DNA of 64,000 bases, from NCBI GenBank assembly GCA_019448385.1, contig JAGTXO010000005.1, positions 1,364,001 to 1,428,000 of the forward strand. The letters are read 5' to 3'. The DNA comes from Diacronema lutheri. Taxonomy: Eukaryota; Haptophyta; Pavlovophyceae; Pavlovales; Pavlovaceae. This document shows, one piece after another, positions 391 through 27,185 of this stretch (positions are counted from its first letter, which is position 1; each line of letters begins with the position of its first letter). Under the pieces are notes generated by a model. The model did no database searches and was not told the origin of the DNA. It was given only the letters and a program-made list of their open reading frames with translations. A program made the position numbers and the translations under genes.

Positions 391-797
391 GTATAGATGG
401 TCAAGCCAAATCCGATCAGGGGCACGATCGAGCGCCCCGAGTGCAGCGCGGGCCATTCGGAAGGACGTCCTTGTGAGGGAGCTCTTCGCGTTTGGCGAGC
501 GGGGGAGCACGACGCGCAGCGTTGCTGCGGCGGCGTGCGGGCGGCGAGCAGCGGTCGGGCTGCTCGCGACGAGGCCGGAGCAGACGGCGCCGTGGCCGCC
601 GGCGCAGGTGACGCGCGCCGACGAGCCGTAGCGAGCGTCCGTGATCCGCACGGCGGTTGGAGCGGGCCGGCTGGTGCGGCGCGCTCGGCCACGGGTGGCG
701 GCGTGCACGGGCGTGCCGAATGCGGTACGCGTCGCCAGCCGCGCGCGACCTGGGCAGAGCCCGCAAAGCGTCGACCGCTGCGCGGCTCGGCCGTGCG
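391..797 (-). other. Non-coding tail between Fanzor stop and element end; candidate OMEGA guide-RNA locus
   Basis: About 407 bp follow the Fanzor stop and run to the element end. No convincing coding frame is present. The segment is almost identical to 57789-58193 of the right copy. In TnpB and Fanzor systems the guide RNA scaffold generally comes from the 3' end of the nuclease gene and the adjacent element end, with the guide read from flanking DNA. By that rule the scaffold would lie here and the guide would run into bases below 391. This is inference; no RNA structure was computed. Confidence 0.4.
419..438. repeat. Subterminal hairpin, left element outer end
   Basis: GGGGC at 419-423 pairs with GCCCC at 434-438 around a 10-nt loop containing CGATCG, about 28 bp inside the outer end. 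The same hairpin is at 58148-58165 in the right copy with a slightly changed loop. Subterminal hairpins are typical end-recognition or guide-RNA features of TnpB-bearing elements, but its role here is not shown. Confidence 0.45.
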
Positions 798-2525
798 TCA
801 ACGCCGGCCGCGCTTCGGCCCGCGCGCGCTGCCGCCGCCGGCACTGGCGCTGGCAGCTCCGCGGGCGGGGGTGCGGGCGCGAGCGCCGCCGCCGCCACCG
901 CCGCCGCGCCCGCCGCCGTCGTCGCCACCGCCGTCGCCGCCGCCGCCTCCCCCGCCGTCATCGTCGTCGTCGCCGCCGCCGCCTCCGTCGCCGTCGCCGT
1001 CGCCGTCGCCCTCGCCGCCGCCGCCGTCGCCGCTGGCGTCGTCGTCGTCGTCGTCGTCGCCCTCGTCGTCGCCCTCGTCGCCGCCGTCGCCCTCGTCGTC
1101 GCAGTCGTCGCCCTCGCCGTGCACCATGCGCTCCTCACGCTCCCACACCTCGCCGCGCGCCCACCAGGCGAGCACGAGGGCAAAGCGCTCAGGCGTCGAC
1201 GTGGTGTCGCGCCCGGCCGCGCGCGCCGCAATGTCGTGCACGTCGTAGAAGATGTTGCGCGCGGCGTTGTAGTCGCGGTGCACGGGCTTCTTGCCGCCGT
1301 TGCACGCCGGGCAGATGACGAGCGCGTGCACCGTGCGCGTGCCGCCCTTTGCCACGGGCAGGCGCGGGTTCTGCGCGAGCTCCGCGCCGCAGCGCTGCAG
1401 CCTGCCGCCCTTGGCGAGCCGCGGCATCGAGCAGTGCATCGACGTGTACGGCTCGGGTACGAAGACGGCCGCGACGCCGCGCCGCCGCAGCTCGCGCAGC
1501 AGCCCCACCTGGAAGGCGGGCGGCGCGCCCTTGGGCTGCGCGCCCTTGTGGTCGTGCAGCCACTTGCCCACGCACACGAGCAGCCGGTCGCGCGTCACGC
1601 CGTCGACGCAGTGCGCCGCGATGAGCGCCTCGGCGACGCGCGCCGCGTTGGACCGCCCGCCGCTGTCGCGCCGCCAGCGCTCCTTGCGGCGCGCCGGCGC
1701 GTCGTACACGTGCTCGGCGGCGCGCTCGCGCACCCGCGCGCTCTCGCGGTGGAAGGCGATGTATTTGCCCGCGTCGAGCACCTTGGCGCTGTGCGCCTCG
1801 CCAAGCCGCGCCTCGTCCGCCTCCACGCTGAACTCCTCGCCGCGCCCGTCGGTGCGCACGCGCCGCCGCGCCGCGTTGGTCTTGGCCGTCTCGCGCGCAA
1901 AGCCCGCGGCGCGCGCGCGCGCGCGCTGCGTGAACTGCCGCCAGACGGCCGCCCGCCCGACGTGCGCAGAGTAGGTGGTGATGTTGCCCATGTTCGGATC
2001 GGCCGCGACGACGACCGCCTCCTCGATGTCGATCGCCCGCCGCAGCTCGGAGCCGAGCGCGACGGCGATGCGCCCGTCCGGCCGGCGCCAGCGGTGCAGG
2101 ACGCTCGAGCTGCCGGCCGGCGCCTGCGCCTTCGGCACGAGGACGGTCGCGACGGCGTGCACGGCGACGCCATCCGTCACCACCGACGTGACGGGCTGCC
2201 GGCCCGGGAGCGGCACGCGCGGCAGCGGCGCGAGGCCCACCCACGAGCGCCGCGCGTGCCACGGCAGATCGGCCGGCGGCCGCTCGCGCCCGGCGTAGTC
2301 GAAGACGCGGTTGGAGATGTCGAAGCGCGTCGCGAAGACCGCGTACCTGACGCGCACGTCGGACATTGGCGGGACAAACGAGCCGCCTTGAGCGGTCCAC
2401 TTGATCGGCTCGCCATCGTGGTCGCGCAGGTCCAGCGCCTTGAGCCGCGCGCGCAGCTCCTTGCGCTCGTCGTCCGGGAGCGTCTCCCAGATGGCGTTCG
2501 CGGTGAGGCGCACGTTGCGCGGCAC
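798..2525 (-). CDS. Fanzor (TnpB-like RNA-guided nuclease) core exon, left copy
   Basis: This is the last exon of the giant gene, 575 residues, encoding the RuvC core of a Fanzor protein, the eukaryotic relative of TnpB that cuts DNA with an RNA guide. All three acidic residues are visible: Asp in AADPNMGN (codon 2000-1998), Glu in VPEPYTSMHC, and Asp in HRDYNAARNI. Between the last two lies a zinc-ribbon pattern: the Cys of TSMHC, QRCG and CPAC. The TS..C and RD.NAARNI signatures are characteristic of TnpB/Fanzor. The tail is a long Asp/Gly run ending in basic GPKRGRR, which could be a nuclear localisation signal. The first codon, GTG, directly follows a CAG splice acceptor; the N-terminal half of the nuclease is in the preceding exon (about 2654-3500). 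The gene looks intact. Confidence 0.85.
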   Translation of the reverse strand: MPRNVRLTANAIWETLPDDERKELRARLKALDLRDHDGEPIKWTAQGGSFVPPMSDVRVRYAVFATRFDISNRVFDYAGRERPPADLPWHARRSWVGLAPLPRVPLPGRQPVTSVVTDGVAVHAVATVLVPKAQAPAGSSSVLHRWRRPDGRIAVALGSELRRAIDIEEAVVVAADPNMGNITTYSAHVGRAAVWRQFTQRARARAAGFARETAKTNAARRRVRTDGRGEEFSVEADEARLGEAHSAKVLDAGKYIAFHRESARVRERAAEHVYDAPARRKERWRRDSGGRSNAARVAEALIAAHCVDGVTRDRLLVCVGKWLHDHKGAQPKGAPPAFQVGLLRELRRRGVAAVFVPEPYTSMHCSMPRLAKGGRLQRCGAELAQNPRLPVAKGGTRTVHALVICPACNGGKKPVHRDYNAARNIFYDVHDIAARAAGRDTTSTPERFALVLAWWARGEVWEREERMVHGEGDDCDDEGDGGDEGDDEGDDDDDDDASGDGGGGEGDGDGDGDGGGGGDDDDDGGGGGGGDGGGDDGGGRGGGGGGGARARTPARGAASASAGGGSARGPKRGRR

Positions 2526-2653
2526 CTGCGCGCAGCGCGCGGCGCGCGAGCGCGCGGGCGCGTGACCAACCTGGCCGCGGGGCGGCGCGCACGGCGGCGG
2601 CGCGCGCGCTTGGGCGCTCGGCGGCGGTAGCGGCAGCCGCGCCTCGCGCGCAC
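2526..2653 (-). other. Intron (128 nt) splitting the left Fanzor
   Basis: On the minus strand the donor is AAT|GTGCGCG at 2653 and the acceptor GCGCGCAG|GTGCC at 2526. Both edges are phase 0. Removal joins PLRTHN directly to VPRNVRL and restores the Fanzor frame; without it the upstream frame runs on into unrelated Arg-rich sequence. The right copy has the same intron, also 128 nt, at 55936-56063. Confidence 0.75.
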
Positions 2654-5600
2654 ATTGTGCGTGCGCAGCGGCGCCACATTATACCGCGGCGGCCGGTCGG
2701 TGAGCTGCGTGTACAGGCGCGCGAGCCGGCAGAGCAGCGCCTGCCCCTCGGCCACGTGCTGCAGGTTGCGGATCTGCACGAGGAAGTAGCGCGTCGTGTG
2801 CCGGTCGTAGTTCCACCTTTTCGTGGGCGCGCACTCGTAGTTGATCTTGTGGAGGACCATGTCGGGCAGGTGGCGGTCGAGCGCGGCGGGGCAGCCGACG
2901 CGCGCGCCCTCCACGTCGCCGCGCAGCAGCCGCTCGCACAGCTCGCGCACGCGCGCGTTTCGCTGCATCTCGGGCAGCGCGACGAGCGCCTCGTCGCGCT
3001 CGACTGCCGCGCGGACGACGTCGCGGAGCAGCCCGTTCACGACGCGCGATGGGTGCATCAGGCACGCGGTGGACACCTGCGTCGCCTCCTCCGCGAGGAT
3101 CTTATCGAGGCCCACCGCGCAGACGGGCTGGACGCCGTCGGCCATCTCGCCGACGGCGCGCGCCGTCGCCGCCTTGGTCTGCGCGGCGGCTTGCTCGGCG
3201 GGCTTGCCTCGGGCCGCTGCACCGTACGTGCTCACGTCCTTGTGCCAGCCGATCGCCGAGAAGATCGCACGGACGGTTCCCTTGTCCATCGTGGTCGACG
3301 TGTGCACGCTTGTCGACGGGCCGCCCGACGCCGCGCCGACGGCCTGCGCGCTCGCCACCGCAGCCTCGTCGCGCACCACCTTGTTGATGGCGCGGTACGC
3401 CTGTGTCGTGAGCCTGTGCACGGCCGCCGCGATGCGCCGCAGCTCCTTCCGCGCACCGGGCTGCGCCGTCACCGCCTGCGGCCCCGCGTTGAGCGTCGAG
3501 CGCTTGACCACGAAGCCCGGGAGCACGCTGCCGCGCGTGCGCGCCGTCGCGCCGCCGGCGGCGCGCGCGCTCGGCGCAGCGGGCTCGTCCACGCGCGCGC
3601 GCTCGACGCCGCGCGCGCGGGGAACGCTCGGCGCGCGCGCGCCCGCGGCGTCGCGCGCGCTCGCGGCAGCACCCGCCGCGGCGCGCTTGCCCGCGGCGCC
3701 CGACACGCCGTGCGCGCGAAGCGGCGCCGACGCCAATGCCGACGCCGCGCCCGCGCCGCCGCTGCCGCTGCCCGATCCGCCCGCGCGCCGCTTCTGCTCG
3801 TCGCGCGTCTTGCGGAACTGGGCGACGAGGTCGCTGCTCACGTTGGCCTCAGGCTCCCACGTGTCGGCGCTCTCGTCGTAGCCCCGCCACCTGATCCGGA
3901 ACTCGAACGTCAACTTCTTGCCCGCCTTGCGGCGCTCGTCGACGACCGCCTCGACCTCGTACGTGCGCGCCTCCTCGTCGACGCTCGCGCCCGCCGCGCT
4001 CGCGCCCGTGTCCGGCCACCCAGCGACCGTGCCGCCCAGCCTCTCGGCGGCCGCGCGCAGCTGCCGCTCGCGCTGGGCGGCCGCGGCGCCTCGCGCGACC
4101 AGCGCGGGCAGCATGCCCGCGCCGCCCGCGAGGCCGTGCGCGCCTACGCTGGCGGTCATCAGCGCGTCGAGGCACGCGAACGTTGCGAGCGCACGCGCGC
4201 CATCGTCGCCGCCGCGCGGCTGCGAGCGCACGACGGGCGATGGCTGCGGCTCCCCCTCGGCCGCGAGCAGCGGCCAGATCGCACTGGCCAGCGCGACGGC
4301 ATGCGCGCCGACCGCGGCGGCCACGTCCGCGTCGAGCGGCGCAAAGTCGTAGCGCACGAGCGCGGCCGGGCGCGAGTCGTCCGTCGGCCGGTCGGCGACG
4401 AGCAGCCCGACCGGGCGCGGCGGCTCGCCGGACGGCGCGGCGACGGGCACGCAGAGGAGCACGACGAGCAGGCGCGGCGTGCCGCCGAGCAGCGCGCGCG
4501 CGGCATCCGCCCCGTCGGCTCCGCAGCGCGCGGCCGCGGCGAGCAGCTCGGCCGCGCGCGTCGGGCCCAGCGCCGTGCGCGCGTCCTTGCGCGCGCGTGC
4601 GCGCGCCGTGTACGCGGCGCAGGCGTCGTCGAGCGCCGCCGCGCTGGGCGCGGTGCCAGTCGTCGCCCACGCGCGCAGCGCGTCGCGCACCCGCGTGACG
4701 ATCGCCTGGTCGACTGCCGCCTCGCCGGCAGCGTGCGCCGGCGCGCACGCCGGCGGTGCGGCGGCAGGCGCGAGCGCGGGCGCGCCGTCGGCGCCGTCAA
4801 CGCCGACGGCGCCGTCGGCGCGCCGCCACGCGAGCTTCGCCTCGATCTGCTGCCGGACGGCGTGGCAGTGCCGGTCGATGCCGCGCGCGTCGTCGAGCGC
4901 GGCCAGCGCGTCCTCAGCGGCGGGACGGTCGCTCGCGTCCGCGACGGCCTGCAGGCAGAGCAGCGCGGCCGCACGCGCGTTGCACGCGCTCTGCGGCTCG
5001 GGCGCGAGCGCGAGCTCGAGCTCGAGCGGCGACGCGCCTCGCGCCGCGGCGATCGCGTCCATCAGCACGTCCAACCGCTGCACCAGCGCCCTGTGCGCGT
5101 CGCGCGGCGCGCCCGTCGACGGCGCGCGCGAGCGCGTCGCCACGAGCCCGAGCGCGCGCGCCGGCGCGCCCGCCGGCGTGTGCAGCACGAGCAGCGCCGC
5201 GCCCGCCAAGCTCGCGTTGCGCGTGACGAGCGCGAAGATGCGCGACGCCTCGTGCGCGCCCACCGACGCCCAGATCGCAGCGCGATCGGCGTCCGTCTGC
5301 GCGTCGCACAGGTCGCGCACGTCGTCCGGCGCGAGCAGCGCGCCGCCGCCGGCGGAGCGCGCGACGATCGCCCGCGCCTCCGCCACGAAGACGGCCTGCG
5401 GCAGGTCGGCGTGGCGCGCGTCGACGATGGCGCGCGTCGCGTGGACGCCGAGCTCCACGCCGCGGTAGAAGGCGCGCGCGTTGGCCGCGCGCGCGTGCGC
5501 CGGCCGTCCGTCCGCGTTGCGCCTCGCGCGCGCCTGCTTGCTCGTGCGCGCGAGGCCGTCGCGTGGCGGTGGCGGCAGCGTAGCGAGGAAGCGCGCGGTG

Positions 5601-8600
5601 GGCGGCGGCGCGCGCACGCCGCGCTGCCGCCGTGCGATGGCCGCGAGCCGCCGGCCCGCCGCGCTGCCGCCCGCGCCGACGTGCTGCCAGCGGTTGAGCG
5701 CCGCCGGTGGCGGCGGCGGCGGCGGCGCGGCGGCGGGCGGCGGCGCGACGGCGGGCGGCGGCGCGGCGGCGGGCGGCGGCGCGGCGGTGGGCGGCGGCGC
5801 GGCGGCGGGCGGCAGCGGCGGCGGCGCGCCGGCGACGGCAGCACCAGTCGGCTTGTCCGCCCACGCACCCGAGACGCTGTCCCAGGCCTTGCCCGGTGGC
5901 GCGCGCCCACGCGGCCGCGGGTGGCGGGCTCGAGCGGCGGGGGGCGGGCGGCCGGCGCGCCAGTCGAAGACAGGTGCAACCGTGGCGGCAGGCGCCGAGT
6001 GCCGCGCGTCGGTCACAGAGCGCGTGGTGCGCGCGGCGACCGTCGCGCGCATGGCGGGCGGGCGGTGAGCAGCGCCCGCCGGCGCGCCGGCGGGCGCGGC
6101 AGCCGGCGCGCCGGCGGGCGCGGCCGCCTCGAGCCCGGCGGAGGCGCCGCGCTTGCGCTTGCGCGTGCCGCCGCGCGTGCGCCTGCGCGCGCGCCCGCCG
6201 CGCGCCCGTTCGGCCTGCGCGTCGCCAGCCGCGTCGCCGGCCGCGTCGCCGCGCCGCACGTAGACGACCGCGAACGCCTCCTCGCCGGTCCCGTCGACGC
6301 CGCCGCGCGCGCGGCGCAGGACCGACCGCCACTGCAGCCGCCGCGCGCGGCCGGGCTCGCACGCAAACCAGCGCCCACCGCGCCTGACGACGGCCACAAA
6401 GTCGTCGTCGCGCCGCCCGCGCCGGCGCGTGCGCAGCAGCACGCACTGCACGTCGAGCCAGCCCTCGTGCCAGTCGGCCGTGCTGGGGGCGACGCGAATC
6501 GACTGCGGGAGCTCGACGCCAAAGCCGGCGAGGCGCACGATGTGCGCGACGATGACGCTCGAAATGGCGGGGGCGCTCGACGGGTCGCCCGCTGCAGCGA
6601 GCACCGCCCCGCCCCAGTGCTCACGCGTGACGCAATCCGCGTCCTCGACGTGCACGTGCGCCACGCTCGCGCCGAGCTGGTGCAGCAACGCGCAGATGTC
6701 GGCGTCGACCGTCCTCTCCTCCTCGGCCGCCTCGGCCGTGCCGCGGGCGGCGGCGTCGCCCGCCGGCTGCCCGAGGTACGCGATCGCCCGCTCGACGGCC
6801 GCGCGCTCCGCACGCGCTGCGCTGGCGATCGCCGCATTGCCGACGGGCGCGCGCAGCGCCGCGATCGCGTCTTGCAACGCCGTCGCGTCGCCCGTCGCCG
6901 CCGTCGCCGCCACCGCCGCCGCGCTCGCGGTGCCGTGCGCGACGGCGTGCAGCGCGGCGGCGCGCGCGGCGGGGATGCGCCCGTCCAGCGCGAGCACGAG
7001 CGGCGGCCCGGCCGGCGTCTGCTGCCGCCGGTGCCGCCGGCTCGCAGCCGGGTGGTCGGCGCGCGCGCGCTCGAGCCGCGCGCGCCGCTCGACGACGCGC
7101 GCCCAGAAGGCCTGCACCCTCGGCTGCGCGAATGCAAGCCAGCCGGCGCCGCGCGTCACGACGTGCACGACGATCCGGTCCTCGTGCCTGAGGTACTGCA
7201 CGTAGAGCGCTTTGCGCACGCCGAGGACGTGCATGCCGAGCTGCAGCTGATCGCGGTGCGGCTGCGGCGGCCCGTCCTCGTGCGCCGTGGCGCCCGCCTT
7301 GGTGAGCGTCTTCACCTCGACGAGGACCTGCTCGTTGTCTTCGGGGAGGATGGCGAGCCCGTCCGGCGAGAAGGCGAACGGCGCGCTCTTGTCGTGCGGG
7401 TCCGCACGCACCATCGGCAGGTTGCACACGACGGTGATGCCGTACGCGGCCGCCAGCTTGCGCAGCGCGACGGCCTCGCCGAGGATGCCCGCGGTCGTCG
7501 CCTTGGTCCGCACCTCGCGCCGCCGCCGGTGCACGTACTCGTCGGTGAGCGTCTCGTGCGCGACGCCGGCGTTGTCGTTCACGACGTCGCCAACCTTGCT
7601 GCCCGTGACCTCCTCCCATCGCTCGTCGTGCCAGCGCGGGCTGCGCTGCGCGGGCGCGCCCGCGCCGACGGCGTCGAGCACGCGGCGCAGCGCTGTGCCG
7701 TCGGGCGCAGCAGGCACGCGCGCGCGGTCCTGGGCCTCGCGAGCGTCGAGGACGCAGCCCGTAGTGGAATCTTGGGCTAGGTCGAGCTTGCTCGCCTCGC
7801 CGTAGCGGCTCTCCAGCTGGCGCGGTGCGTCGGCAGGGCCGCCGTCCGTGCGCGCACCCGACGCGCCCGCCAGTGCACGCGGCGCAGCGTCCGAGGCGCC
7901 CGCCGCGCCCGCGCCGCCGCCAATCGCGCCAGCGCACGCGCGCGCCGCGACCTGCGGACGGCCAGCCGCAGGGACCTCGTCCGCTCGGCCGGCCGCTGCG
8001 TCGGCCGTCCGCTTGGCCACCTCGCGCACGTCTCCGAGCGCGAGCGTGGCTGGCGCCGTCGAGCTCCCGTGGCGTTTGTTCCAAAACTCGAGCAGCCCGC
8101 CAAGGAAGGGCGTGCCCGTCGGGCGGTCCTCGGGCACCTCCGCCAGGATCGCGTCGACGCGCAGCGCGGCCGCCACATCGCAAAACGCGCGCGCGGCGCG
8201 CGCCATCCGCTCGGCGCGCGCGCCGCCGTCGTCCGCCGCGCGGCGGATGGCGTGGCTCACGTGCGCGACGCGGAGCGAGACGACGGCGTGCGCCGGCGCG
8301 CCGGCGCCCGTGCCGAGCGTGTGCCGCCGGATGGCCAGCTGCCCATCGCCCATGCGCGGCGGGAGCGACGCGCACGCCGCGACGGTCGTCGTGCCGGCCG
8401 CGCTGTCGCACAGCCAGCTCGCCTCGCCGCCGCCCGCAAACTCAAAGGTCGCGAAGCCCTCGCGGCCGAAAAGCGCGACGAAGTGGTCGAGCACCGCCTT
8501 GTTGATCGCGCGCGCCGCCGGCCGCGTCGATGCGCCGCGGGCAGCGCCACCCGCCGCGCCGCGCGCATCGCTGCACGTCGCAGGGCAGGTGCAGCCGGAC

Positions 8601-11342
8601 GCGCGCACGCCGTCCGACCGCGTCCGCGGCAGCTCGAGCTCGCGCACCTTGGGGCAGAACCAGAGCGGGTTGGACGCCTCGAGGCACAGCACGACGAGCC
8701 GCCCGTCCGTGCCGGCCAGCGCGCGCGCGTCGCGCAGCAGCTCGACGGCGAGCTCGGACGTCGCCGCGTGCACCGCCGGCTCGCCCGTCGCGCGGTCGGG
8801 CGGGAAGAGGCCGCCGCCGACGAGCGGGCTGGGGCAGCGGCCGAGCATCACGAGCAGCGGCGGCGGCGGCGTCTGCGGCGCCTGCTGCCCGACCGCAGCC
8901 GCCGTCAGCCCGGCCAGGTCGGAGCTCGTGCGGAGGGCCTTGAGCGCGACGCGCGAGCCGGTGCCCGCCTGCTCGGAAAACGTGGCGAGCATGGCGCACG
9001 TGCTCGCCCTCGCGCCGCACTGCCAGCTGACGCGCGCGAGGAGGCCTTCCAGCGTGTCGTTTTCGCGCGGCCGCGTGACCGCGTCGAGCGCCGCCGAGTC
9101 GAGCTGGAGGCTGCCGGGCGTGACGCACAGCACCGCCTCGTGGTAGGCGCGCAGCAGCTCCCTCGGCAGCTGCTCGGCGGGCGTCGCCGCCTGCCCGCCC
9201 ACCCACCGTGCACCGTGGCCGCCGTCGCCCGCGCCCGCGAGCCGCACCGCCGGCCCGCCCGTGATCGCCGAGGTCGGTGGCGTGCCGAGCGCGTCGACGA
9301 GCGCGCGCACGGGCGCGACACGCCTGCGCGCAGCGTCCGCGCCGACGGCGAGCGCGGCGATCCGAGCGCCCTCCCATGCGCGCTCCCTCGCGTCGTCCCG
9401 CGCGGCCGCCGGCGCGGCGCCCGGCCGCGCGCCGGGCGGCACCGCGCACGCCGCCGCGACGACCTCCGCGCGCGCGCCGGCGGCGTCGGGCGCGTGCAGC
9501 TGCGCGAGCGCGCCAGAGAGCGCGGCGGCCGAGCGGTAGCGGCCGTGCGCCGCGACGAGCGCGTAGAGCACGCGCAGCGCGGCCACGCCCGCCTGGTCGG
9601 GCGCGTCGTCAGCGATGCGCTCGACCTCCCACGTGCGCGTGGGCGGCGGGCTGCCGTCGGCCGGGTCCGGACGCAGCGCCCACGCGCGCTCGACGATCGC
9701 GTTGAACACGCCGTGCGCGGCGCCCTCGTCAAACTCGGCGGCGCCCGCCGCGTGCGCGCACCACCCGTGCACGCGCGACGTGGGCGCGTCCACGGCGCGC
9801 TGCACGACGAGCACCGCCGGCCGGTCGACGCAGCCGAGGCTCACCGCCGCGTGCTTGCCCTCGAGCAGCGCCGCCGCCGCAGCCTCGACCAAGGCGTCAC
9901 CAGGCGCGTCGCCGACGACGACGGCACAGCCGTCGCCGTACTCGGCCTGCATCGCGGCGACGCACGACGCGACAAAGTCGCCGCCCGCGGCCGCCGCGTG
10001 TCGCGCCGCCAGCATCCGGCGCGCGATGGCAAGCCAGACGTACTCGGCCGGCGCGCGCGCGGCGCGCGCGCGAGGCGCGCCGGCCGCGCCGCGTGCGCCC
10101 GCGCGTGCGCCTCCAGCGGCCGCAACGGCCGAGGCGGCTGGAGCGGCGGTGAGCGTGCGCCGCGCGCGCTTCGCCGGCCGCGTGATGGGCGATGCACCCG
10201 CCATCGCACCGCCCGCAGCAGCCGGTGCGGCCGCCACAGCGCCCGCCGCAACGCCACTCGTCACGACGCCCGTGGCGGGCGGCGCGGCGTCGGACGCGGC
10301 CGCGTCGACGGGCGTCGCGCAACTACCGCCAGCGGTCGCGGACGCGCCCGGCGACGCGTCGGCGAGGAGGTGGCGCAGCACGCCGCGCGCGAGCGCGACT
10401 CGCACGGCGAGCGTCAGCGCGCGCAGGCGGTCGGAAGGCGAGGCGTCGCGCTCGGCGTCGGCGGACGTGGCGGCAGCAGGCGGGGCGGCGGGCGGCGCGG
10501 CGGCGGACTGGGCGGCCGCCGGCGCAACCTCGTCGGCCTTGGCCAGCCAGACGAGCCCGGCGACTGCGAGCACGACGCTGTACGCGCCGACATCGTCACC
10601 CGCAACGCGCGCCAGCCGGGCGTGGGCGTCGGCCTCGGACACGGCGACGCGGAAGAGCACGTCGTCGCGGGCAGCTTGCTCGGCAAACTGACGCAGCTGC
10701 TTGGCCATCGTCACGCCGGCGACGCACGCCTCGCCCGCCTCTGCCTCGACCTGCTCGTCCTGGCCGATGGCGGACGCGCCGGCCTCGGCGCCAGCGTCGA
10801 GTGTCCGGCGGCGCTCGAGGGCAAAGCCACGCACACAGACGCTCTGGAGGCCGCCGAGCGCGCCCGCCTTCTCGTGCAGCGCGCACGACAGCTCGACCAC
10901 CGAGTCCACGCGCCTCGCGGCGGCGCCCCCCCGCTCGCCGCGCGTGGCCGCGCGCACGACGAACACCGTGAATTGCGCGCGCTTCGCCGCGCGCGCCGAC
11001 GCGCACGCGTGCTTCAGGAGCCGGCAAAGCGCGGGCCTTTGCGCCGCTGCGCCCCGCGTGCACAGCAGCAGTTGGCCGCGCTCGTCGCCCAGCTCCTGCT
11101 CGACGGCGGCCTCGAGCGCGTCGTCCGTCAAATCGCCGTGCTCCGTCGAGGCGAGCGCGCGCGCAGCCGCGAGCGCCAGCTCGCCTGCGCCCGCGCGCCG
11201 CCGGCGGCGCGCATCGGCGGGCGCGTGCGGCGCCGACGCGTGTGACGACGCCGCCGCGTCCGCGCGCGCACACGCGGCGCGCAACGCCTCGCGCGCCGAG
11301 GCGGCCGCGCGCGCCCTGGGCGCGAGCTTCAAGAACGTGCGC

Positions 11343-11393
<51 letters not shown>

Positions 11394-14300
11394 TCGCCCT
11401 CGTCGCCGGCACGCGGCGGCGGTGGCGGCGGTGGCGGCGCGGCCACGGCGGCGGCAGCAGCGGCAGCGGCGGTGGTGGTGGCGGCGGCGGCGCCCAGCGC
11501 GGGCGGCGGAGGTGGCGGCGGCGGCGGAACGGCGGCAGCGGCGGCGGCGTCTGCGGCGGCCTTGGCGCCGCGCGTCTGCCGCGGCGCTTCGGCAGCGCGA
11601 TCGCGGCTGCCCCCGCCGCGCACCGCGCCCGCCCCGGCGCAGGCGCCGCTCGGCGCACGCCCGCTGACCGCGCCAGTCAACGCGACGCGGAGGTGCTCGC
11701 CAACAGCGTACATGTCCGCCACGCTGAACGTGCGCGGCGCGGATGCACCGCCCGCCGCAGCGAGCGCGGCGTCGTTGAGCGCGCCCACCACGGCGAGGCC
11801 GCACGTCGCGCCACGCTGCGCCGCGTTGTCGAGCAGCCGCGCGCGGCGCACGGGCAAGACGTCGAGGCCCGCCGCGTGCAGCGTGGCGGTTATCGACCTG
11901 GCACGCTTGAGCGCCTGCCTGCTCGGCGACGCGAGCGTGTCGACAAGCACCGCGTCGTAGCGATGCTCGCCCGCGCGCGCGACGCGCACGAGGCGCAACG
12001 CGGTGAAATGGCCGGAGGCGGGCGGCGTGCCATCGTCACTGCCCGCACCGCCGCGCCCGCCCGGCGGGCTCCACATGCCGATGACCGCCTGCGTCGTCGC
12101 CTCGCTGTGCAGGCGGTGCAGCAGCGCGGCGCGCTCGGCGCCGTCCTGGAACACCGCGGGCTGAGCGGCAAGCGGTACGTGGCAGACGCGCCCTTCGCCG
12201 GCCTGCCCGTGCACGCGCAGCACGACCTCGCAGCAAGCGTCCACAGTGGAGGCGAGCATGTCGCCGCCCGCAATGCAGTCCACCTCTGCCTGCGGGATGC
12301 CGGCGCGCGCGGCGGCATCGGCCAGCCGGAGCGCAGCCGCGTCGCCCGCCCACGCGAGCAGCGCCGGGGCGGCGGACTGGACGTCGCGCTGCGCCACGGC
12401 GGGCTCGGCCGCGGCGGGCTGGGCAGCGGCTGGCTCGGCAGCGGCGGGCTGGGCGGGGGCTGGCGCGGCGGCGGTGGGCTCGGCGGCCGACGATTGCGTG
12501 GCAGGCTGCGGCGCGGCCAAGGCGGCGGTCGGGCGGGCGGCGGAGGCGAAGGCGGCCCATGCGGCGGCCGAGCACACGGCGACGAGCCAAAAGGCGGTGG
12601 CTGCAGACGGGCGAGCGGCCGGAGCAATGGCGGCCCGGACGGCAGAGGCGGCGACGACACTCGCGAAGATGCCGACGGCGCACCGGACAGTGGCGACGGC
12701 GACGGCGGCACCGGCACACGGGCGGCGGTGGGGGCTGTCGGGCTCGGCGGCAGGCTCGGCGGCATGCTCGGCCGAGGGCCGATCGGTGCGCGACGGCGGG
12801 CTGCGACTCGCGCGGCGGAGCGGCTGCGGTGCGTGCTGGCCGCCCGTCGCGCACCTGCGCTTGCGCTCGCGGCGCGCGTCGCCGCCACGCAATCGGCGGC
12901 CGACAGCCCGCTCTGACCTGTCGATTGATCTCCGCAGCCGGTCGCGCGCGCGCTTTGCCGCCCGCCGTGCGCGCCGCGGCGGTGCGCGCGGGCACTGGTC
13001 GGGCGAGCTGCGCGCGGCAGGCTCGCAGCAGCCGCCGTCGCGTGCGTGCGCGCAGCCTCGGTCGCACGGCGCGCAAACGAGGTCGTCGGCGCCATCGACG
13101 CCGTCGAGGCCGTCGCCGCGCGCTGCGGCTGCGAGCGCGCGTGCCACGCCGTCGTCGCCGGCCGCCGGCGCCGCTGCGGCGGCCGCGGCGTCGGCTGCAC
13201 GGCGCTCGGGCTGCGGCTCGAGCGGCGGGACGGCGCCGGCCGCCGCGGGCGGCGCCGTGTCGAGCGGAGCAGCCGCGGCGCGCGCGCGCGCGCGCGCACC
13301 CTTTGCGCCTACCGCGAGACGCCACCCGCGCGGGCGCCACGCGCGCCGCGGCTCGGCGGCCGCGCGACCGGCGGTGCCGGGCGTGGCGGCGAGCGCAGCG
13401 CTCGAACTTGCGTCTGGCTCGGTGGCGGCGAGCCGGCGCAGTTGCCGCGCAATGCAGGGCTGCACGTCGAGGTGCGCCTCGTCGAGTCGCGAGAGGAGCT
13501 CGCGCGCGCGAGTGCCGAGCGCGGCGCCGTCGCACTCGGCACGCGCGCCCGCCGGAGCCACCGAGCCTTCGGGGTCGCGCGGCGCGAGCAGCTCGCGCGC
13601 AGTCGCGAGCAGCTCCGCCTGCTCGGCGGTGGGGATGCAGGCGCGGCGCAGCGCGAGCTCTGTGTGCGCGGGCAGGTGGGCGCCCACGGCCTCGGCGTGC
13701 ATGAGTAGCGCGCGCGCCTCCGCAGGTGCGTCCGCCTCGCCCATCTCGGACGCGGCGAGCACGCCCGCCGCCTCAGCGGCGAGCGCGAGCCGCGGCGACG
13801 CGAGGTCGCGCAGCGACCGCAGCAGGTGCGGAGGCAGCGCGTGGCCACGCGCCTTGACGCGCTCGAGCAGGGCGCGCGCGCGCGCTGCATCGTCCGCAGA
13901 GCCCAGCGCGCACTGCTCGATCAGGCGGCCGGCCGCGCGCTTGTCCTCGCGAAAAAGCTGCTCGCGGTGGAGCGCGCGGCGGGTCTCGCGCTTGGCGAGC
14001 GCGTCGGCACGCGCCCTGCAGCCCTCGTCGGCGGCGGCGGCGAGCTCGGCAACGCCGCCAGGCTCGGTGGCGGCGGCAAGCGTGGCGGCGACGGCGCCTA
14101 CCTCAGCGGCAGCAATGCGGTCGTCAGCGCGCTTGGCGGCAGCGCATTTGACGGCGGGCTGGTCGGCTGGCTTGGCGTCAGGCACGGTGGGAGGCTGGGC
14201 CGTGGACTGGGCGGCGGGCTCGGCGGTGGGCTTGGCAGCGGCTGGCTTGGCGGCGGGCTCGGCGGCGGGCTGGGCGGCGGGCTGGGCGGCGGCGGGCTCG

Positions 14301-14686
14301 GTGGCGGGCACGTCCGCCTCGGCCAACAAGAGCGGCTCGAAGCGGTTGCTCGCGCGCATGCTGGCGCGCGGATGGCTCGGCGGCAGAGCAGCGGGCCGAA
14401 CGCCAGCGCCCGCGCCGAGGCCTGGCCGCGCTGGCTGCCAGGGCTGCTCGCGCTGCTCGCGCTGCTCGCGCTGCACGCGCTGCACGCGCTGCTCGCGCTG
14501 CTCGCGCTGCTCGCGCTGCTCGCGCTGCTCGCGCTGCTCGCGCTGCTCGCGCTGCTCGCGCTGCTCGTGCTGCGGGCACCACGTGCGCTTGCGCCAGTTG
14601 TGCTGCGCATCCCCGCCCTCCGCTGCCGGCTCAAAATTTGCGCATGCCCAGATTTGGCCGCGCCCAACAATTGGCGTGCGCTGGTC
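2654..14686 (-). CDS. Giant polyprotein exon: low complexity - Ulp1-like - YqaJ - chromodomain - Fanzor N-terminus (left)
   Basis: One uninterrupted frame of 4,011 codons. In order it has: a Glu-Gln-Arg repeat (about 14575-14442); Ala/Pro/Lys-rich sequence; a hydrophobic stretch near 12.7-12.5 kb that may span a membrane; a Ulp1-like cysteine protease (about 12.4-11.7 kb); poly-Ala; long unassigned regions, some repeating a weak Ulp1-like pattern; a YqaJ-type nuclease (about 7.6-7.1 kb); a Pro/Ala repeat; a chromodomain (about 3970-3800); and the Fanzor N-terminal region. From 12.4 kb to its end it is collinear with 46.18-55.94 kb of the right copy, whereas the first ~750 codons are not. The exon probably starts at GAC 14686 after a pyrimidine-rich stretch ending CAG, rather than at a start codon. 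It may be processed by its own proteases, but that is a guess. Confidence 0.7.
3800..3970 (-). other. Chromodomain in giant polyprotein (left)
   Basis: RTYEVEAVVDERRKAGKK leads to FRIRWRGYDESADTWEPEAN, the classic chromodomain core: aromatic Y at the start, W in RWRGY, W and E in TWEPE. Chromodomains read methyl-lysine on histone tails, and in mobile elements they can steer integration to chosen chromatin. It sits directly before the Fanzor N-terminal region. Confidence 0.9.
5701..5830. repeat. Pro/Ala-coding 15-bp repeats (left)
   Basis: Imperfect 15-bp units on the GCGGCGGGCGGCGGC theme encode PPPAA repeats in the giant frame. The matching tract at 52741-52890 in the right copy has a different unit number. 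Confidence 0.7.
7080..7645 (-). other. YqaJ-like PD-(D/E)XK exonuclease domain in giant polyprotein (left)
   Basis: The signature residues occur in order: SPRWHDERWEEVTGSKVG (entry helix and GS loop), FSPDGLAIL (first catalytic Asp), VEVK (Glu-x-Lys pair) and HRDQLQLGMHVLG (the Gln motif). This is the layout of YqaJ / lambda-exonuclease-type recombinases, which chew 5' strands for single-strand annealing. All catalytic positions are present in both copies. Confidence 0.75.
11338..11400. repeat. GGC/GCC triplet run coding poly-Ala (left)
   Basis: A near-pure triplet tract encodes a run of Ala after the Ulp1-like domain. The right copy's run (47143-47220) is longer and includes Thr interruptions, so the tract length is unstable. 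Confidence 0.85.
11690..12420 (-). other. Ulp1-like cysteine protease domain in giant polyprotein (left)
   Basis: His in SGHFTALRLVRV, Asp in VLVDTL, then Gln and Cys in QRGATCGLAIVGALND occur in the order and spacing of the C48 (Ulp1/SENP) fold. Such proteases cut SUMO-like proteins and occur in several DNA transposons and giant viruses. The domain starts where the two elements become homologous. The target is unknown. Confidence 0.6.
14442..14575. repeat. 9-bp tandem repeat coding (Glu-Gln-Arg)n
   Basis: About fourteen copies of CGCTGCTCG, a few with CGCTGCACG, encode Glu-Gln-Arg (occasionally Val-Gln-Arg) in the giant frame on the minus strand. The tract is present only in the left element. 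Confidence 0.9.
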
Positions 14687-14774
14687 CTGCGCGCGGCCGG
14701 CGGGCAAGAGGTCGGGCGGGCGGGAGGCGTAGGGGATGCGTGAGGGTGCTGCACGCTATACGCGCAAACTTTAC
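14687..14774 (-). other. Probable intron (88 nt) joining USP to giant exon
   Basis: Donor CAG|GTAAAG at 14774 is in phase 0 with the USP tail. The acceptor follows a pyrimidine-rich run and reads GCGCGCAG|GACCAG at 14687, in phase 0 with the giant frame. A second phase-0 donor, GCG|GTGAGT at 14843, would serve equally well. Either choice fuses the ubiquitin protease to the giant polyprotein. Confidence 0.5.
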
Positions 14775-16237
14775 CTGGCGCGAACGCAAGCGCCGGGCGC
14801 CACGCTGTGGACAGCGGACGGCGTGCGCGTGCGAGGCACTCACCGCCATTGGCAATGCGCGCGTCGCGGAGACAACTTGGCGGGCCTCGCACGCAGCTGG
14901 GCCGATCGCCGCCGCAGAGGTGTCTGCAGCCGTCTCCGCGATGCCGATCGTCGCATCTGTTGGCACCGCTGCCATCTGCCGCACCCGCGACCAGGCTGCC
15001 GACAGGGTCGGCGCGTCGGGCGCCGAGCTCGGCCACGCAGGCGATGCGGCCGACGGCGGTGACGCTGAGCCCAGCGCCGGGTCCAACGGTTCCGCGTCGA
15101 GCCGGCTGTAGAAGAGCATGCTCGCACCACTTGCCCACGCCAGCGCGTCGGACTGAGACAAGTTGTGCATCTGCGCGGGCAACGCGCGTGCGTGCGGCAG
15201 GCGCGCGGCGCGAGCTTTCAGGCCACGCGCGCGTGCCGCGCGGGAGGACGGGGCGGCTGCGGCTGCGATCAACCGCCGGTCGCGGCGCCAAGCGGCCGTG
15301 CGCGCCGCCGCACGTTGTCGTCGTCGCACAGAAACCAAGCCCCGTTGCGGAGCACGATGGCGACAAGGTGCCCGCTCGTCGACTCCTCGCCCAAGTGCAC
15401 GACGGCGGCGACGAGGAGGTAGTCGCGCCCGCCGAGTAGCAGCCGCGGCGCGCACACGAACGCGTGCTTGTTCTTGCACTGCGAGCCATTGCCGCGCGTC
15501 GTGCGCGGCACCTCGACGGCAATGCTGGCTGGCATGAGCACGTCCGAGCGGCACGCGTCCGGGCTGCCACCCTGCGGCGGCCCAGCGACGCCCCCCAGAG
15601 CGTGTGCGAGCGTGCGCGCCGCATCGCCGCCAATGCTGACGAGGATGGCGATGCCCTCACCGCGCTCGCTCGAGGCCACAGCGATCGGCTCGAGCACTAC
15701 GCGTCTGTCGTCTTCGAAGGCAGCAGCGAGCCCGGGCACTCGGCCGAGTAGCATCTGGAAGAACTCAGCAGCGTCCTGCTGCGTCCCTCGCGTGCCACGG
15801 CCCAAGATGACGTCGACGACGGACACAAGACACAGCTGTGCCGGCGCCTCGGTGTCCTCGAGCAGCGTGCCAAAGTCCCGAAAAAGCGCCTTCTCGACTC
15901 TTCCCGCACGGCGCGAAGCGGAGCGGGGCATCGGACGGAGCACGTTCAAGGCGACGAGCGATTGCGCGAGGGCGTTCACGTAGCACGCGTTGCCCTCGTT
16001 TTTCACGCCTGCGCCGCGCCGCGCAGCGCCGGGTGTGCGGGGTGCGCACGCAAGGTTTACGGCGGGTCGGAGAGAGGCCGACTGGGAACGCGCCGAACCC
16101 GGCGAGCCGTGCAGGCGCTCACCACGCGGCACGTCGGGCACTCTCACCGGCCACATCGGGCCGATGAACGCGCCCCCCACAGGCTGCCGGCCGACGACTC
16201 GGAAGTTGCTCCAGGCGCTGCGCCGTGCACGCGTCAT
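14775..16237 (-). CDS. Ubiquitin-specific protease (C19) module, left copy
   Basis: Two exons, 15314-16237 and 14775-15170, with a 143-nt phase-0 intron between them (15313-15171, AAC|GTGCGG to GCGCAG|ATGCAC). The USP Cys box reads NEGNACYVNALAQSL, the second box GTQQDAAEFFQMLL, and the His box TSGHLVAIVLRNGAWFLCDD. After splicing, DDDN joins MHNLSQSDALAWASGASM and LFYSRL, the usual USP end, with canonical spacing, which supports this intron. Nucleophile, His and Asp are intact, so active deubiquitination is plausible. ATG 16237 is the best start; frame upstream of it has no recognisable domain. Whether it is a separate protein or the N-terminus of the giant polyprotein depends on the next intron. 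Confidence 0.75.
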
Positions 16238-17241
16238 GCGCGCGCTGTTGCGGGCTACGCAGCAGAAACGACGGGGGAATAGGCGAGCGAGGGTTGGGCG
16301 CAGATCAGCGTGGTGGCGCGGCAAGACGAGCGCGCGCCGGGCGCCTGGCGCGGAGGCGCCCCGCGCGAGGACGCGAGCCGCTTCTCGCACCGGACGGGCG
16401 CCCACGCGCAAACCGGCTTTAGAGGGCCAGATGGATGGTGGCCGATGACGAATCAGCGCGGCACCCGCCTTTGAAAAAGGGCGTCGCGGCACTGCCCGAA
16501 AGCGGTACGGACGAGCCGGGCGCCATGCATGGAACGATGCGACGGCGGCGTGAGCGCGGGACGATCTTGCCCAGGCAATTGTGCGCGTTCAGCGGGCGGC
16601 GCGCGCGTTGCGCGTGACGGGGCGCCGAGCGGCACACCGGCGGGGACCCGCTCGCCGCTGCCGTGGCATCCTCCGCTGCCGGCGTGCTGGCACGCACGCG
16701 CATTGCCGGCGCGAGGGGACGGCGAGTGCGCCTCGGCCGAACAGGCGCGAACGTTACGCCCGAGCGCGTGGCCGAGCACCGGATGGAAGCATGCTTCGTC
16801 ATGCGGCGGCGACCCGCGCCGATTGCACGCAGCGCCGGCCTAGGCGCGCATCCGCCCGACGCGGATTTGGACGACGCGTCGACCGGCACGCCGAGCGTCT
16901 GCGTCTGCCTCGCGGCCGGTCGCGCCGGCCCCTCTTCGGCTCGCGGCCGCACGTGCGCCGCGCGCCGCTTCGGCGCGCGGCGCGGCGCGCCTGGAACGCG
17001 CGGAACATACGCGCGGTGCGCGGGCACGCCCGCAACGCGCCATTTTAGCGCGAGCAGTTCGGCAAGCTTGCAGCTCGCGAGCAGCCGGGCATGTGCCGCG
17101 GACACACAGTTCGCTGTGTGCGCCGGCCGCGACGACACGGCGTAGCGGCGCGAGGCTGGCGGCCGGGGCCACGGGCGTAATCGTGGCGCGACGCCATGGC
17201 ATGAGTAATAAATCCATGAGTAATAAATCACGGGCCCAAGC
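16238..17241. other. Gene-less spacer between USP and PIF1 remnant (left)
   Basis: Open frames here are short, Arg/Ala-rich and without recognisable motifs. The spacer is conserved in the right copy (about 33.6-34.48 kb). At 17200-17230 two direct copies of CATGAGTAATAAATC lie in a locally AT-rich patch absent from the right copy. On the minus strand the region upstream of ATG 16237 should hold the USP/giant gene promoter, but I see no clear core element. Confidence 0.5.
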
Positions 17242-19490
17242 TCACGCGCTGTACGGCCTCTCCCGCATGGCGTGTCGGATCCGCCCCGCAGCCAGGACCG
17301 CATTTTCGCTCGGCCACGCAGCGGACCACGGCGCGTTGTGCGCGCCCGGCGCGAGTGGTGCGAGTGGCGGGCCAAGCCGCGTCGCCCACGGAGCCCGCCC
17401 CCGGCTCGGCGGCACCGCTACCGCTTGCTCGCCGGGCCGCGCACCGCCGTCGCCGCCGCTGCGCGCTTGCCCTGCTTGCCGGCAGGCGGCGGCGGCGGCG
17501 GCGGCTGAGGTTGCGGCAGCGGCGCGAGCGCGACGCCGGACGGCGGCAGCGCCGACGGCACGCGCGCGGCGGCGACCCACGCGGCGTCGGGCAGCGCGCC
17601 GGCTTGAGGCCCCTGCTTGCCGGCCGCATTGGCGCCGCCCTGCGCGCCCTAGAAGGGCGCGCAGGTACGCGGGCCAGTCGCGCGGCGCGCGGTGTTGGCG
17701 AGCACCCGCCGGCTGCGCGTCGGCCGCGAGCGGCGCGGCGGGCGTCGCGCCGGCGGGTGCTGGGCAGCACCGCGCGCCGGCGTCGCGCCCGCCGCCAGCG
17801 CGCCGCCCGCCGCCGGCGCCGCGCGCGCCGTCCGAGCCGCGCCCGCCGCGCCCGCCGCCACCGCGCGCCGCCGCCGCGCATTCGCGCGCGGCGGCGACGG
17901 CGGCCGCGGCGAACGCCGCCGCCGCCGCCGCCGCCTCGCCACCGCTGACCGCGCGGAGCACCTCTTTGAAGACGACGGTGCGCGTCACAGGGTCCGGGCC
18001 AAGCGCAAAGCGGATGCGCGACGCGTGCCCGACGCGCGAAGCGGCCACGTAGAGCTGGCCGTGCGTGAAGCACGGCTCGGCGAGCCACACGCCCGCGCAC
18101 CCGAGCGCTTGACCCTGCGCCTTGTTACGCCGGCCGCACCGGGAACTGGCGGTGCAGCCATGCAAACGCGAACGTGCCCTCGTCGGGCGAGTGGTGGTCG
18201 ATGCGCGCGATGAGCACGGTGCTGTCGCGCCCGGCGGCCGCGCCGGGTCGCGCGCACTCGAGCAGCCGGCCGCCGGCGCGCACGCCGCGCACGACCAGCC
18301 GCGTGCCGCTGCACAGCCCCTCGCCGAGCGAGAGGAGGCGAGTGGCTACGAGCTCCGCCGGGTAGGCCGAGACGCCTCGGGCAGCTGCACGGGATCGAGC
18401 GGGAATGCGCCGGGCATGGCCCCCGCAGGCGGCACCGCCGCGGGAAAGGCGCCGTCGCCGAGGCTGCGCGGCAGCTTCGCCCACTCGCCCGCGCCGAGCG
18501 CGTCGCCCGTGTCGCGCGCCGCGTTCGAGGCGCGAGAGTTCTCGACCAAGGCGTACGGCCGATCGTGCTGCCACGATGCCGAGTACTCGAGGCAGGAGCG
18601 CACGATCTGCGCGCGCGAGCCGCGCCGCACCACCGGCAAGCACTGGCAAAAGTCGCCGGCGAGCAGCAACGTCTTGCCGCCGAAGCGCTCGTCGACGCCC
18701 GTCACGTCGCGCAAACACCGATCGAGCGAGTCGAGGCGGCCCCGCTTCTGCATCGGCGCCTCGTCCCCCACGATCATTCGCCGCGGCGGCCACGGAGCGC
18801 CCGCGCTCGGAGCGCGGCACGCCATTGAACGGCTTGCCCGTCCGAGTCGGCGCCGACGGGCACCTTGAAGGTCGAGTGGAAGGTGCGGCCGTCGGGCAGC
18901 AGCGTGGCGGCGACGCCCGAGGACGCGCACACGACGACCGCGTGCCCATCCGCGCGCACGGCGGCGATGATGGCGCGCTCGACGAACGTCTTGCCCGTGC
19001 CGCCCGGCGCGTCGCAAAAGTGCAGCCGGTCGCCCACGCCGCGCAGCGCCGAGTCGACGACCGCGCCGTGGAGCGCGCGCTGCTGGCCGGTCTCGGCCAT
19101 CGCCGCGCGCGCCGCCGCCGCGCTCGCAGCCTGCTCGGCGCGATCGTAGCCCTGCGCGCGCGCGAGCTCGCGCCCGCCCGGCCCGGCCGGCGCGCGCGCC
19201 GTGCGCAGACCGGCCACCGCCGCGAGCGCCGCCGCGCGCTCGCGCTCGTCGGGCACGTACAGCCCCGTGGAGTCGAACGTGTCGGCCCAGGCGGCCACGC
19301 TGTACGAGGCGAAGGCGTCCGAGCCGGGCTGCGGCCGCTGCTCGGCGCGCTTCGGGAGCATGACCCCGCACACGTTCCACTTGGTGCCAAACATCGAGCC
19401 CGTGAGCCCCGTGTAGACGCAGTCGAGCTGCGTGGCGATGGCGCAGACGTCCTCGTGCCGGATCTCGTCGACCGGTTCGCCATCCGTGGC
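17242..19490 (-). pseudogene. PIF1-family helicase, truncated and frame-shifted (left)
   Basis: PIF1 motifs are readable in several frames: Walker A in CDAPGGTGKTF (about 19013-18985), ASSGVAATLLPDGRTFHSTF, the DEAD-like box IVGDEAPM, FGGKTLLLAGDF followed by LPVV, and near the C-terminus KAQGQALG and FTHGQLYVAASRVGH. At least two frameshifts separate Walker A from the DEAD box. About 320 bp between the middle motifs and the C-terminal part, present in the right copy, are deleted. The N-terminal possible ssDNA-binding part is cut off at 19490 by a short inverted-repeat element. The downstream tail is Gly/Ala/Arg low complexity. It is not expected to make an active helicase. Confidence 0.75.
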
Positions 19491-19672
19491 GTCCAGGATG
19501 GCGACTGCGCCCGGGCCGTGACGCCGCGGCGTCGTTCGGCTGCGTCACGGAGGAGCGCCATCCGTGCGCCACGGAGGAGCGGCAGGACCACGACGCGGCG
19601 TGACGCTGGACGACGCCATGCTGTCGAGGCGCCATGCTGTCGAGCCGCCATGCTCCGAGGCGCCGCCGCTTT
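19491..19672. mobile_element. Half copy of inverted-repeat element B (left)
   Basis: This carries the interior and one terminal repeat of a short palindromic element found whole at 29450-29700. It abuts the truncated PIF1 gene at GGCGTCCAGG and ends in GAGCCGCCATGCTCCGAGGC. It has no coding potential. Confidence 0.6.
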
Positions 19673-19674
19673 CT

Positions 19675-19966
19675 AAAAGGGTGTAGGGTGTAGGGTGTAG
19701 GATGCAAAACAAGCCCTCCCCACATTTGGGCCCGACGTCACTCCTTCTTCCGTCACAGCGTCATTCCTTCTCCCCCTATGGGACTTTCATAACCGTACTC
19801 ATCCTACACCCTACACTATGTAAATACTTAGAGAATAGATACATCCTACACTAAGTAAAAGTACTCGTATGTGAGTAACGTCACGGCTTCGAAGAAGGAA
19901 TGACGCCGGGCCCAAATGTGGGGAGGGCTTGTTTTGCATCCGACACCCTACACCCTACACCCTTTT
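19675..19966. mobile_element. Inverted-repeat mini-element A, copy 1
   Basis: A 292-bp element with terminal inverted repeats of at least 65 bp, each starting AAAAGGGTGTAGGGTGTAGG and running to a shared GGGCCC. The ends carry three units of a TGTAGGG repeat. The centre is much more AT-rich than anything nearby (AGTAAAAGTACTCGTATG type). Two more copies lie at 29152-29444 and 29704-29995. All are flanked by GGCGCCGCTTT-like sequence. No protein is encoded, so it would be a non-autonomous (MITE-like) element. Confidence 0.8.
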
Positions 19967-21780: not shown

Positions 21781-21798
21781 GTACGACCCGGGTCGTAC
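21781..21798. repeat. 18-bp perfect palindrome near inner end (left)
   Basis: GTACGACCCGGGTCGTAC is its own reverse complement and lies ~41 bp from the inner border. The same palindrome is at 27186-27203 in the right copy, 41 bp from its border. It could be a binding site for an element-encoded dimer. Confidence 0.75.
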
Positions 21799-21906
21799 TC
21801 TCAGCCTTACACTGGCCGGACCAGCCCGGACCGCGCCGTATAATCAGTTTTCACACATCGGTTCCGGACCAAGCTCCGCGACGGCGACGCGGCGGCGGTT
21901 TCGGTG

Positions 21907-27177: not shown

Positions 27178-27185
27178 GGCTGAGA

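Follow-up and report, generated by a model that had tools for sequence, protein, structure and literature searches.

A giant, high-copy mobile element in Diacronema lutheri with a long gene that appears to end in a Fanzor nuclease

The gene considered here lies in a 64,000-nucleotide stretch of the genome of the haptophyte Diacronema lutheri (contig JAGTXO010000005.1, positions 1,364,001 to 1,428,000; hereafter the window), for which an initial annotation, made from the sequence alone, had described a Fanzor nuclease fused to a polyprotein of about 5,000 residues. We find that this gene belongs to one copy of a larger, high-copy mobile element, and that beyond the gene already described there is a second copy in the window, a defined pair of element ends, a frame-broken relic of a Pif1-family helicase and an extra N-terminal exon. 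The interpretation that we tentatively favour, with somewhat less than even confidence, is that of a giant DNA transposon whose one long gene encodes a YqaJ nuclease, a chromodomain and a C-terminal Fanzor, and which would spread by RNA-guided cutting and copy-in. Taken as a whole, the earlier description holds for the long gene and most of its domains, and is not supported for the Ulp1-like protease, for the joining of the USP domain to the giant frame and for the completeness of the zinc ribbon.

Aligned to itself in inverted orientation, the window matches between 391-12477 and 58193-46070 at 96.6% identity, with further blocks out to 21842/27142, and the borders 391, 21842, 27142 and 58193 recur across comparisons. 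They delimit two copies, A and B, in head-to-head arrangement (Table 1). We searched the whole assembly (43,492,796 bases in 103 contigs, labelled here C1, C2 and so on), in which the 3' end of the element was matched 219 times and the 5' end 248 times with at most two mismatches; a reversed-pattern control gave no match in the genome. For the pairing of ends, the places listed were the mismatch-free ones on contigs C1-C43 (99 5' ends and 88 3' ends), and 61 of these 99 5' ends could be paired with a 3' end, at a mean length of 28.1 kb. The lengths of 51 of the 61 paired copies fall near 21.5, 26, 29 or 31 kb (12 at 21.4-21.6, 7 at 25.9-26.9, 8 at 29.0-29.4 and 24 at 30.9-31.1 kb), with the remaining ten at other lengths from 12.6 to 37.8 kb. 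If each end represented one copy of mean length, the family would make up some 14-16% of the genome, which is an upper-side estimate because truncated copies exist.

Eight copies were compared with each other: A and C4a (21.4-21.5 kb), C3 (26.5 kb), C50 and C9 (29.1-29.2 kb), and B, C1 and C4b (31.0-31.1 kb). The 21.5-kb form lacks about 10 kb that the longer forms have, and 2.4 kb of its own stands in that place. Contigs C1, C12 and C8 have an edge exactly at the 3' end of the element and C32 at its 5' end, and since several contigs start or stop precisely at these points, the repeat is the probable cause of breaks in the assembly. A telomere-bound element, as the three contigs with an edge at the 3' end might suggest, was considered and rejected: C32 begins with the 5' end, and in other contigs the helicase lies about 4.6 kb from the start, which fits assembly breaks within a long repeat.

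In copy A the four exons proposed initially, all on the complementary strand, join without an internal stop into 5,026 residues plus a stop codon, and all three gaps are indeed bounded by GT...AG in phase 0. The 4,513-codon frame of copy B is longer than any frame obtained when the same 19.3-kb region was simulated 200 times with a first-order Markov model (maximum 1,799 codons), so a frame of this length is not the product of chance, and a coding pattern in G+C by codon position accompanies most of it. The same measure shows in copy B an exon at 38886-42560, followed by the giant exon in a different frame and then by the Fanzor exon. This additional exon of 1,225 codons is full-length in B, C1, C4b, C9 and C50 and present to one third in C3, with no match in copies A or C4a; conversely, residues 1-736 of the giant exon in copy A occur in the 21.5-kb form alone. 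The 1,225-codon exon and the giant exon could be linked through a GT-AG intron, with 27 frame-compatible pairs to choose from, and the long form predicted for the 31-kb element would comprise about 6,213 residues (1,225 + 4,414 + 574). Depending on the form, the element would encode a polyprotein of roughly 4,500 to 6,200 residues, made up of an N-terminal module that varies, long stretches with no assignment, the YqaJ-type nuclease, the chromodomain and the Fanzor at the C-terminus. Across the genome, none of the 150 places scored (from 203 candidates) has a stop within the YqaJ domain, and for 105 of them the surrounding frame has 4,000 codons or more.

Purifying selection between the element forms is hinted at by the ratio of non-synonymous to synonymous changes per site (pN/pS), given here for some pairs among the eight copies. 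For the shared giant exon the values are 0.61 (A-C50), 0.70 (A-B), 0.95 (C50-B), 1.1 (C1-B) and 1.24 (A-C4a), and for the Fanzor exon 0 (A-C50, one change), 0.60 (A-B), 0.64 (C50-B), 0.7 (A-C4a) and 2.0 (C1-B). The USP exon gives 1.05 and 1.12 between forms, and the extra N-terminal exon 1.8 (B-C50). Indels relative to copy A in the shared giant and Fanzor exons add up to multiples of three in six of the seven other copies. The USP frame carries a frame-breaking indel in C50 and C9 and none in B, C1 and C4b.

Of the domains assigned to the gene, the chromodomain is borne out by clear profile and structure matches (Table 1). The YqaJ-type nuclease gives a weak Pfam match in the window (0.017 in the whole frame and 0.0014 in a 601-residue piece, below the PF09588 cut-off in both copies), and its match to the lambda-exonuclease family TIGR03033 is also under the cut-off of that model; genome-wide, all 150 listed places exceed the PF09588 cut-off, which, with the TIGR03033 match, supports the assignment. 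In a large protein collection, no relative of the YqaJ region was found at E 1e-3 among the candidates scored. A UCH profile match substantiates the USP domain, in which we recognise what we take to be the Cys and His boxes. Its attachment to the giant frame, as had been proposed, is not upheld: the open frame is the sole basis for it, the codon-position bias of exon 2 is weak (67/68/79 vs 74/54/97 in the Fanzor exon), and read without splicing the USP frame stops after 322 residues. For the Ulp1-like domain we find a motif, presumably the triad of such proteases, and no Ulp1/C48 profile match, so that the suggestion of two de-conjugating proteases on one polypeptide is left with one member that is a motif only. 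Internal Ulp1 repeats were also sought and are not upheld, as 13 of 15 segment pairs have z <=1.2 and the pairs at z 3.7 and 2.6 are without the triad segments.

At the other end of the gene, the Fanzor exon of copy A matches the Cas12f1-like TNB profile at 2.2e-6, and its D-E-D residues are kept in eight of eight copies and in a relative, P0003. The glutamate in this set is the alternative one, six residues from the first zinc-finger Cys, in line with the description of the Fanzor glutamate as sitting six residues before the zinc finger (PMC10711439; here and below, statements from the literature refer to the covered parts of the papers cited). The older RuvC-II acid position is occupied by K (GKW) in the giant element and by G in P0003. 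The second zinc knuckle, CPAC, is present. What had been called a complete RuvC/zinc-ribbon Fanzor does not have a complete zinc ribbon, the first knuckle being CSMP. Among the candidates scored from the protein collection, two relatives of the Fanzor exon were found: P0003, which is 46% identical and keeps the glutamate, and P0002, which is 96% identical and adds no independent support because it probably derives from the same or a sister strain.

As the initial annotation held, the giant protein seems to carry the Fanzor at its end. The 128-bp intron between the giant and Fanzor exons is the same in all eight copies (Table 1), and the coding pattern continues up to both of its sides. In addition, an alignment with the TDG motif as anchor matches the last ~130 residues of the giant exon to the N-terminal half of another Fanzor family in this genome, the stand-alone one discussed below, with a score of 62.5, a value reached by one of 500 shuffles (best 63.0). 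Unanchored, 81 of 300 shuffles scored as well and BLASTP gave nothing convincing, and since the signal appears only with the anchor, the evidence that the end of the giant exon represents the N-terminal half of the Fanzor is moderate. These data bear on a different account, in which USP, giant protein and Fanzor would be separate genes on the same strand with no natural read joining them, and which we think improbable on balance. The 322-residue USP frame, the weakly coding exon 2 and the prediction of the P0003 Fanzor exon as a protein of its own would suit such an arrangement, but the intron kept in 8/8 copies, the coding pattern on both its sides and the anchored alignment all argue for a joined product. 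Between the Fanzor and the 3' end of the element there is no further gene, and the last 200 nt give an RNA fold with z -2.14 (5 of 200 shuffles as good), which is consistent with a putative Fanzor guide RNA from the right end.

On the 5' side, both copies contain a Pif1-family helicase relic. What we take to be its Walker A and B motifs lie in different frames in eight of eight copies, 239 bases apart in each; a later helicase motif could be recognised in four of the eight. In copy B the match divides between two separate frames (PF05970 at 1.3e-23, Pif1_2B at 4.1e-13). A break shared by the copies is the simplest reading of the offset, with a very short intron as the alternative. One of the Pif1 frames had no relative at E 1e-3 among the candidates scored from the protein collection. 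Ahead of the Pif1 motifs, 30581-31500 codes for ~240-300 residues that have no Pfam match.

The 5' end reads [C/G/T]TATATA[C/G] and then GGCGCGG in 26 of 29 left junctions, with the other three varying within that stretch, and the 3' end reads CCATCTATAC in 27 of 27 right junctions; at the edge of contig C6, where there is no flank, the right end reads TATAA. Flanks differ among the 29 left and 27 right junctions, the base preceding the left end being A or T in 21/29 and the first nucleotide of the element being C in 23/29. No left-right flank repeat of at least 6 bp was present in any of 25 copies at any offset tried. TATAC is common to both ends in 16 of these copies and TATA in six more, and this shared sequence could belong to the element, be a crossover core or be a duplication. 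No unoccupied insertion site was found. A 14-bp sequence, GCGYCGTTAGTATA, occurs 426 times in the genome (for example at locus L019, near position 45, and at L046, L054, L079 and L083) and stands beside some element copies; on C4, C5 and C9, three of 57 sites are <=100 bp from an element end vs 0.09 expected, and four are <=500 bp away vs 0.50 expected.

Pfam profiles were scanned, for copy B, over all three forward frames of 27142-46502, over the giant and Fanzor frames beyond that, and over the reverse strand of 28001-56802, and in these parts there was no match to a DDE transposase, to RepHel or Helitron_like_N (PF14214), or to a tyrosine recombinase. One account of this would be a rolling-circle element of the Helitron2 type, deprived of its RepHel and mobilised in trans, with the polyprotein and Fanzor as cargo, a possibility that we rate as unlikely though not negligible. 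Under it the Pif1-type relic on the 5' side becomes the remnant of RepHel, and the lack of flank repeats of 6 bp or more in 25/25 copies, the palindrome near the 5' end and the possible hairpin near the 3' end would fit; Fanzor1 is also known from Helitron2 elements of a green alga (PMC3627910). However, the 3' hairpin stops 28 nt short of the tip and a better DNA fold exists there, the first nucleotide is C in 23/29 junctions where the literature names T, and the scanned parts contain no Helitron_like_N. The sole Helitron_like_N match of the genome, at locus L020 on C63, has its neighbouring parts in other frames, through introns or decay. With no Rep domain found in the scanned parts of the element, a Helitron in the strict sense was rejected.

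The sequence shared by the two ends could alternatively point to a Crypton-like element, inserted by a tyrosine recombinase acting in trans with TATAC as the crossover core, which seems to us rather doubtful. That nothing longer than TATAC or TATA is shared in the 16 and six copies would agree with such a core, and the genome holds 16 matches of the phage-integrase (tyrosine recombinase) type, four of which (C69:95472, C17:194914, C50:195629 and C4:48529) lie 1.5 to 11 kb outside element ends. Against more than 200 element copies, 16 matches mean that the recombinase is not an element gene, and the four nearby matches possibly reflect chance or repeat-rich neighbourhoods. The left junctions read TATATA[C/G] whereas the right ones read CTATAC in 27/27, and no empty site was found against which to check the core. 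Descent from a domesticated or integrated virus, such as a Polinton or a giant virus, would fit the large size, the helicase and the recombination-type exonuclease, but in the scanned parts no profile of a capsid, a polymerase, a packaging ATPase or an integrase was matched, scans of IMG/VR gave no relative and phage records gave nothing, and we consider this origin very improbable.

The favoured mechanism, unproven as it stands, is copy-in by Fanzor and YqaJ at cut sites. The right end would supply the Fanzor guide RNA, with flanking DNA serving as guide, so that the Fanzor could cut a homologous site that lacks the element; the tethered YqaJ nuclease would resect the break, repair would copy the element into the cut site, and the chromodomain may hold the complex on chromatin. 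An initial insertion at a new site would call for a nicking or joining activity hidden in the unassigned stretches or provided in trans. We infer these steps and the existence of a single polypeptide in vivo; the element with its ends and copy number, the open frames, the domains, the Fanzor residues and the intron are what the data show. A stronger claim, which we regard as on the unlikely side, is that this is a new class of mobile element with no classical transposase, in which the sole maintained product is a giant protein combining an RNA-guided nuclease, a resecting exonuclease, a chromatin reader and N-terminal proteases; cutting of the target, resection and copy-in would then be the work of one molecule.

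Several observations weigh against this interpretation of a Fanzor-driven transposon. The parts scanned hold no profile of a transposase, recombinase or HUH nuclease, which leaves transposition itself unexplained, and with the helicase out of frame in 8/8 copies the earlier idea of a self-contained machine is unproven. The pN/pS values, 0.61-1.24 in the giant exon and from 0 up to 2.0 in the Fanzor exon, do not demonstrate that the protein has been under selection among recent copies, after their spread, and the giant exon of C4b carries an uncompensated indel. As to the Fanzor, RuvC-I reads DPN here and DTG in P0003, not the usual DPG; this motif is reported 'near exclusively' in Fanzors (PMC10711439) and not as an absolute rule, so DPN is not taken as excluding one. 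The first zinc knuckle is atypical, with CSMP in place of CxxC and the next C 14 residues on, and the best solved-structure match of the exon is Cas12f1 (profile, E 0.017), with no match to a solved Fanzor structure at E up to 1. The predicted start of P0003 coincides exactly with the Fanzor exon boundary, and promoters inside the giant exon could give a separate Fanzor. The 29 left and 27 right junctions show no clear target-adjacent motif outside the element, and the fold of the 3' hairpin, noted above, is a further point of this kind.

Table 1. Features of the two element copies, with positions in the window
Feature	Position	Strand	Basis or remark
Element copy A, 21.45-kb form	391..21842	-	5' end 21842, 3' end 391; copy comparison and junctions
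Possible hairpin near 3' end	419..438	-	not best DNA fold, z 0.33
Fanzor C-terminal exon, copy A	798..2525	-	PF07282 2.2e-6; D (DPN), E (PEPYTSMHC), D (RDYNAARN)
Phase-0 GT-AG intron, 128 bp, giant exon to Fanzor exon	2526..2653	-	length and borders same in 8/8 copies
Giant exon, copy A	2654..14686	-	open frame, codon-position G+C, copy map
Probable N-terminal part of Fanzor domain, in giant exon	2654..3043	-	anchored alignment to second Fanzor family
Chromodomain	3809..3961	-	PF00385 6e-12; PDB chromodomains from 2.9e-9
YqaJ/lambda-exonuclease-type nuclease domain	7223..7633	-	TIGR03033 1.7e-5, PF09588 0.0014
Ulp1-like H...D...Q...C motif	11777..12013	-	motif only
Proposed exon 2 of initial model	14775..15170	-	open frame, weak coding signal
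UCH/USP-type protease domain, copy A	15314..16237	-	PF00443 5.9e-14; may be separate 322-residue gene
Pif1-family helicase relic, copy A	18028..19737 (approximate)	-	PF05970 2.7e-23; motifs in different frames
18-bp perfect palindrome near 5' end	21781..21798	-	DNA fold z -2.09
Element copy B, 31.05-kb form	27139..58193	+	inverted relative to copy A (head-to-head)
Pif1-family helicase relic, copy B	30581..32610 (approximate)	+	PF05970 1.8e-24, Pif1_2B 5.3e-13; motifs in different frames
UCH/USP-type frame, copy B	34009..35505	+	PF00443 4.3e-8
N-terminal exon, 1,225 codons, 29- and 31-kb forms	38886..42560	+	codon-position G+C; right border among several candidates
Giant exon, copy B	42694..55935	+	4,513-codon frame, Chromo and YqaJ; left border set by one of the 27 frame-compatible pairs
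Fanzor C-terminal exon, copy B	56064..57788	+	PF07282 4e-6

An EML-type WD40 protein (PF23414, 3e-145) is encoded next to copy B, at 58242-62915; its gene contains a 1.95-kb segment twice, 2.7 kb apart and 99.4% identical.

The initial statement that no element of this layout has been described agrees with the literature searched, in which we found no matching element and no paper with both 'Fanzor' and 'YqaJ'; judged from that literature, a fusion of Fanzor with YqaJ and a chromodomain is unusual. The part of the D. lutheri genome paper covered here gives 22.9% repeats, with long terminal repeat elements at 32.7% of masked bases, and no element of this kind is named there (PMC8379373). By the estimate above, the family may take up about a seventh of this compact 43-Mb genome. 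It has yet to be settled what purpose Fanzors serve in the transposons that carry them, and if our reading is correct, the element would offer a natural case, in a eukaryote, of an RNA-guided nuclease linked to enzymes of repair, and the alga is one in which the idea could be tested.

One point of comparison is in the same genome, where the second, stand-alone Fanzor family (loci L001-L008 and L059) has a sharply defined 3' end that follows a long hairpin-like repeat. This end runs into CTATATA in seven of eight loci, a likeness to the giant element, and the RuvC halves are 25% identical (E 3e-8 in a single comparison), but the stand-alone family keeps GDW where the giant element has GKW. It matches the solved Fanzor 8gkh at E 0.23 only, a structure that the exon of the giant element does not match at E up to 1, and it was ruled out as a close relative by the lack of any chromodomain or YqaJ match in the 7 kb scanned. 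The eukaryotic transposons that carry Fanzor1 (Bao and Jurka 2013; PMC3627910) share the Fanzor-type nuclease with its D ... [TS][TS]xx Cys ... RD signature, although Fanzor1 is there a protein of its own, whereas here the Fanzor is apparently fused behind a giant YqaJ/chromodomain frame and no transposase is seen. The Helitron2 elements with Fanzor, CRe-1 to CRe-3 (PMC3627910), appear to resemble the present element in their subterminal palindromes, their Pif1-family helicase (a relic here) and the lack of a long target duplication. They differ in having five to ten Fanzor exons, while our element is 21-31 kb long, has no RepHel Rep domain that we could find and places its 3' hairpin otherwise. 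SpuFz1, finally, belongs to the same class of RNA-guided nuclease and has a right-end RNA and an AT-rich target motif (CATA) (PMC10432273).

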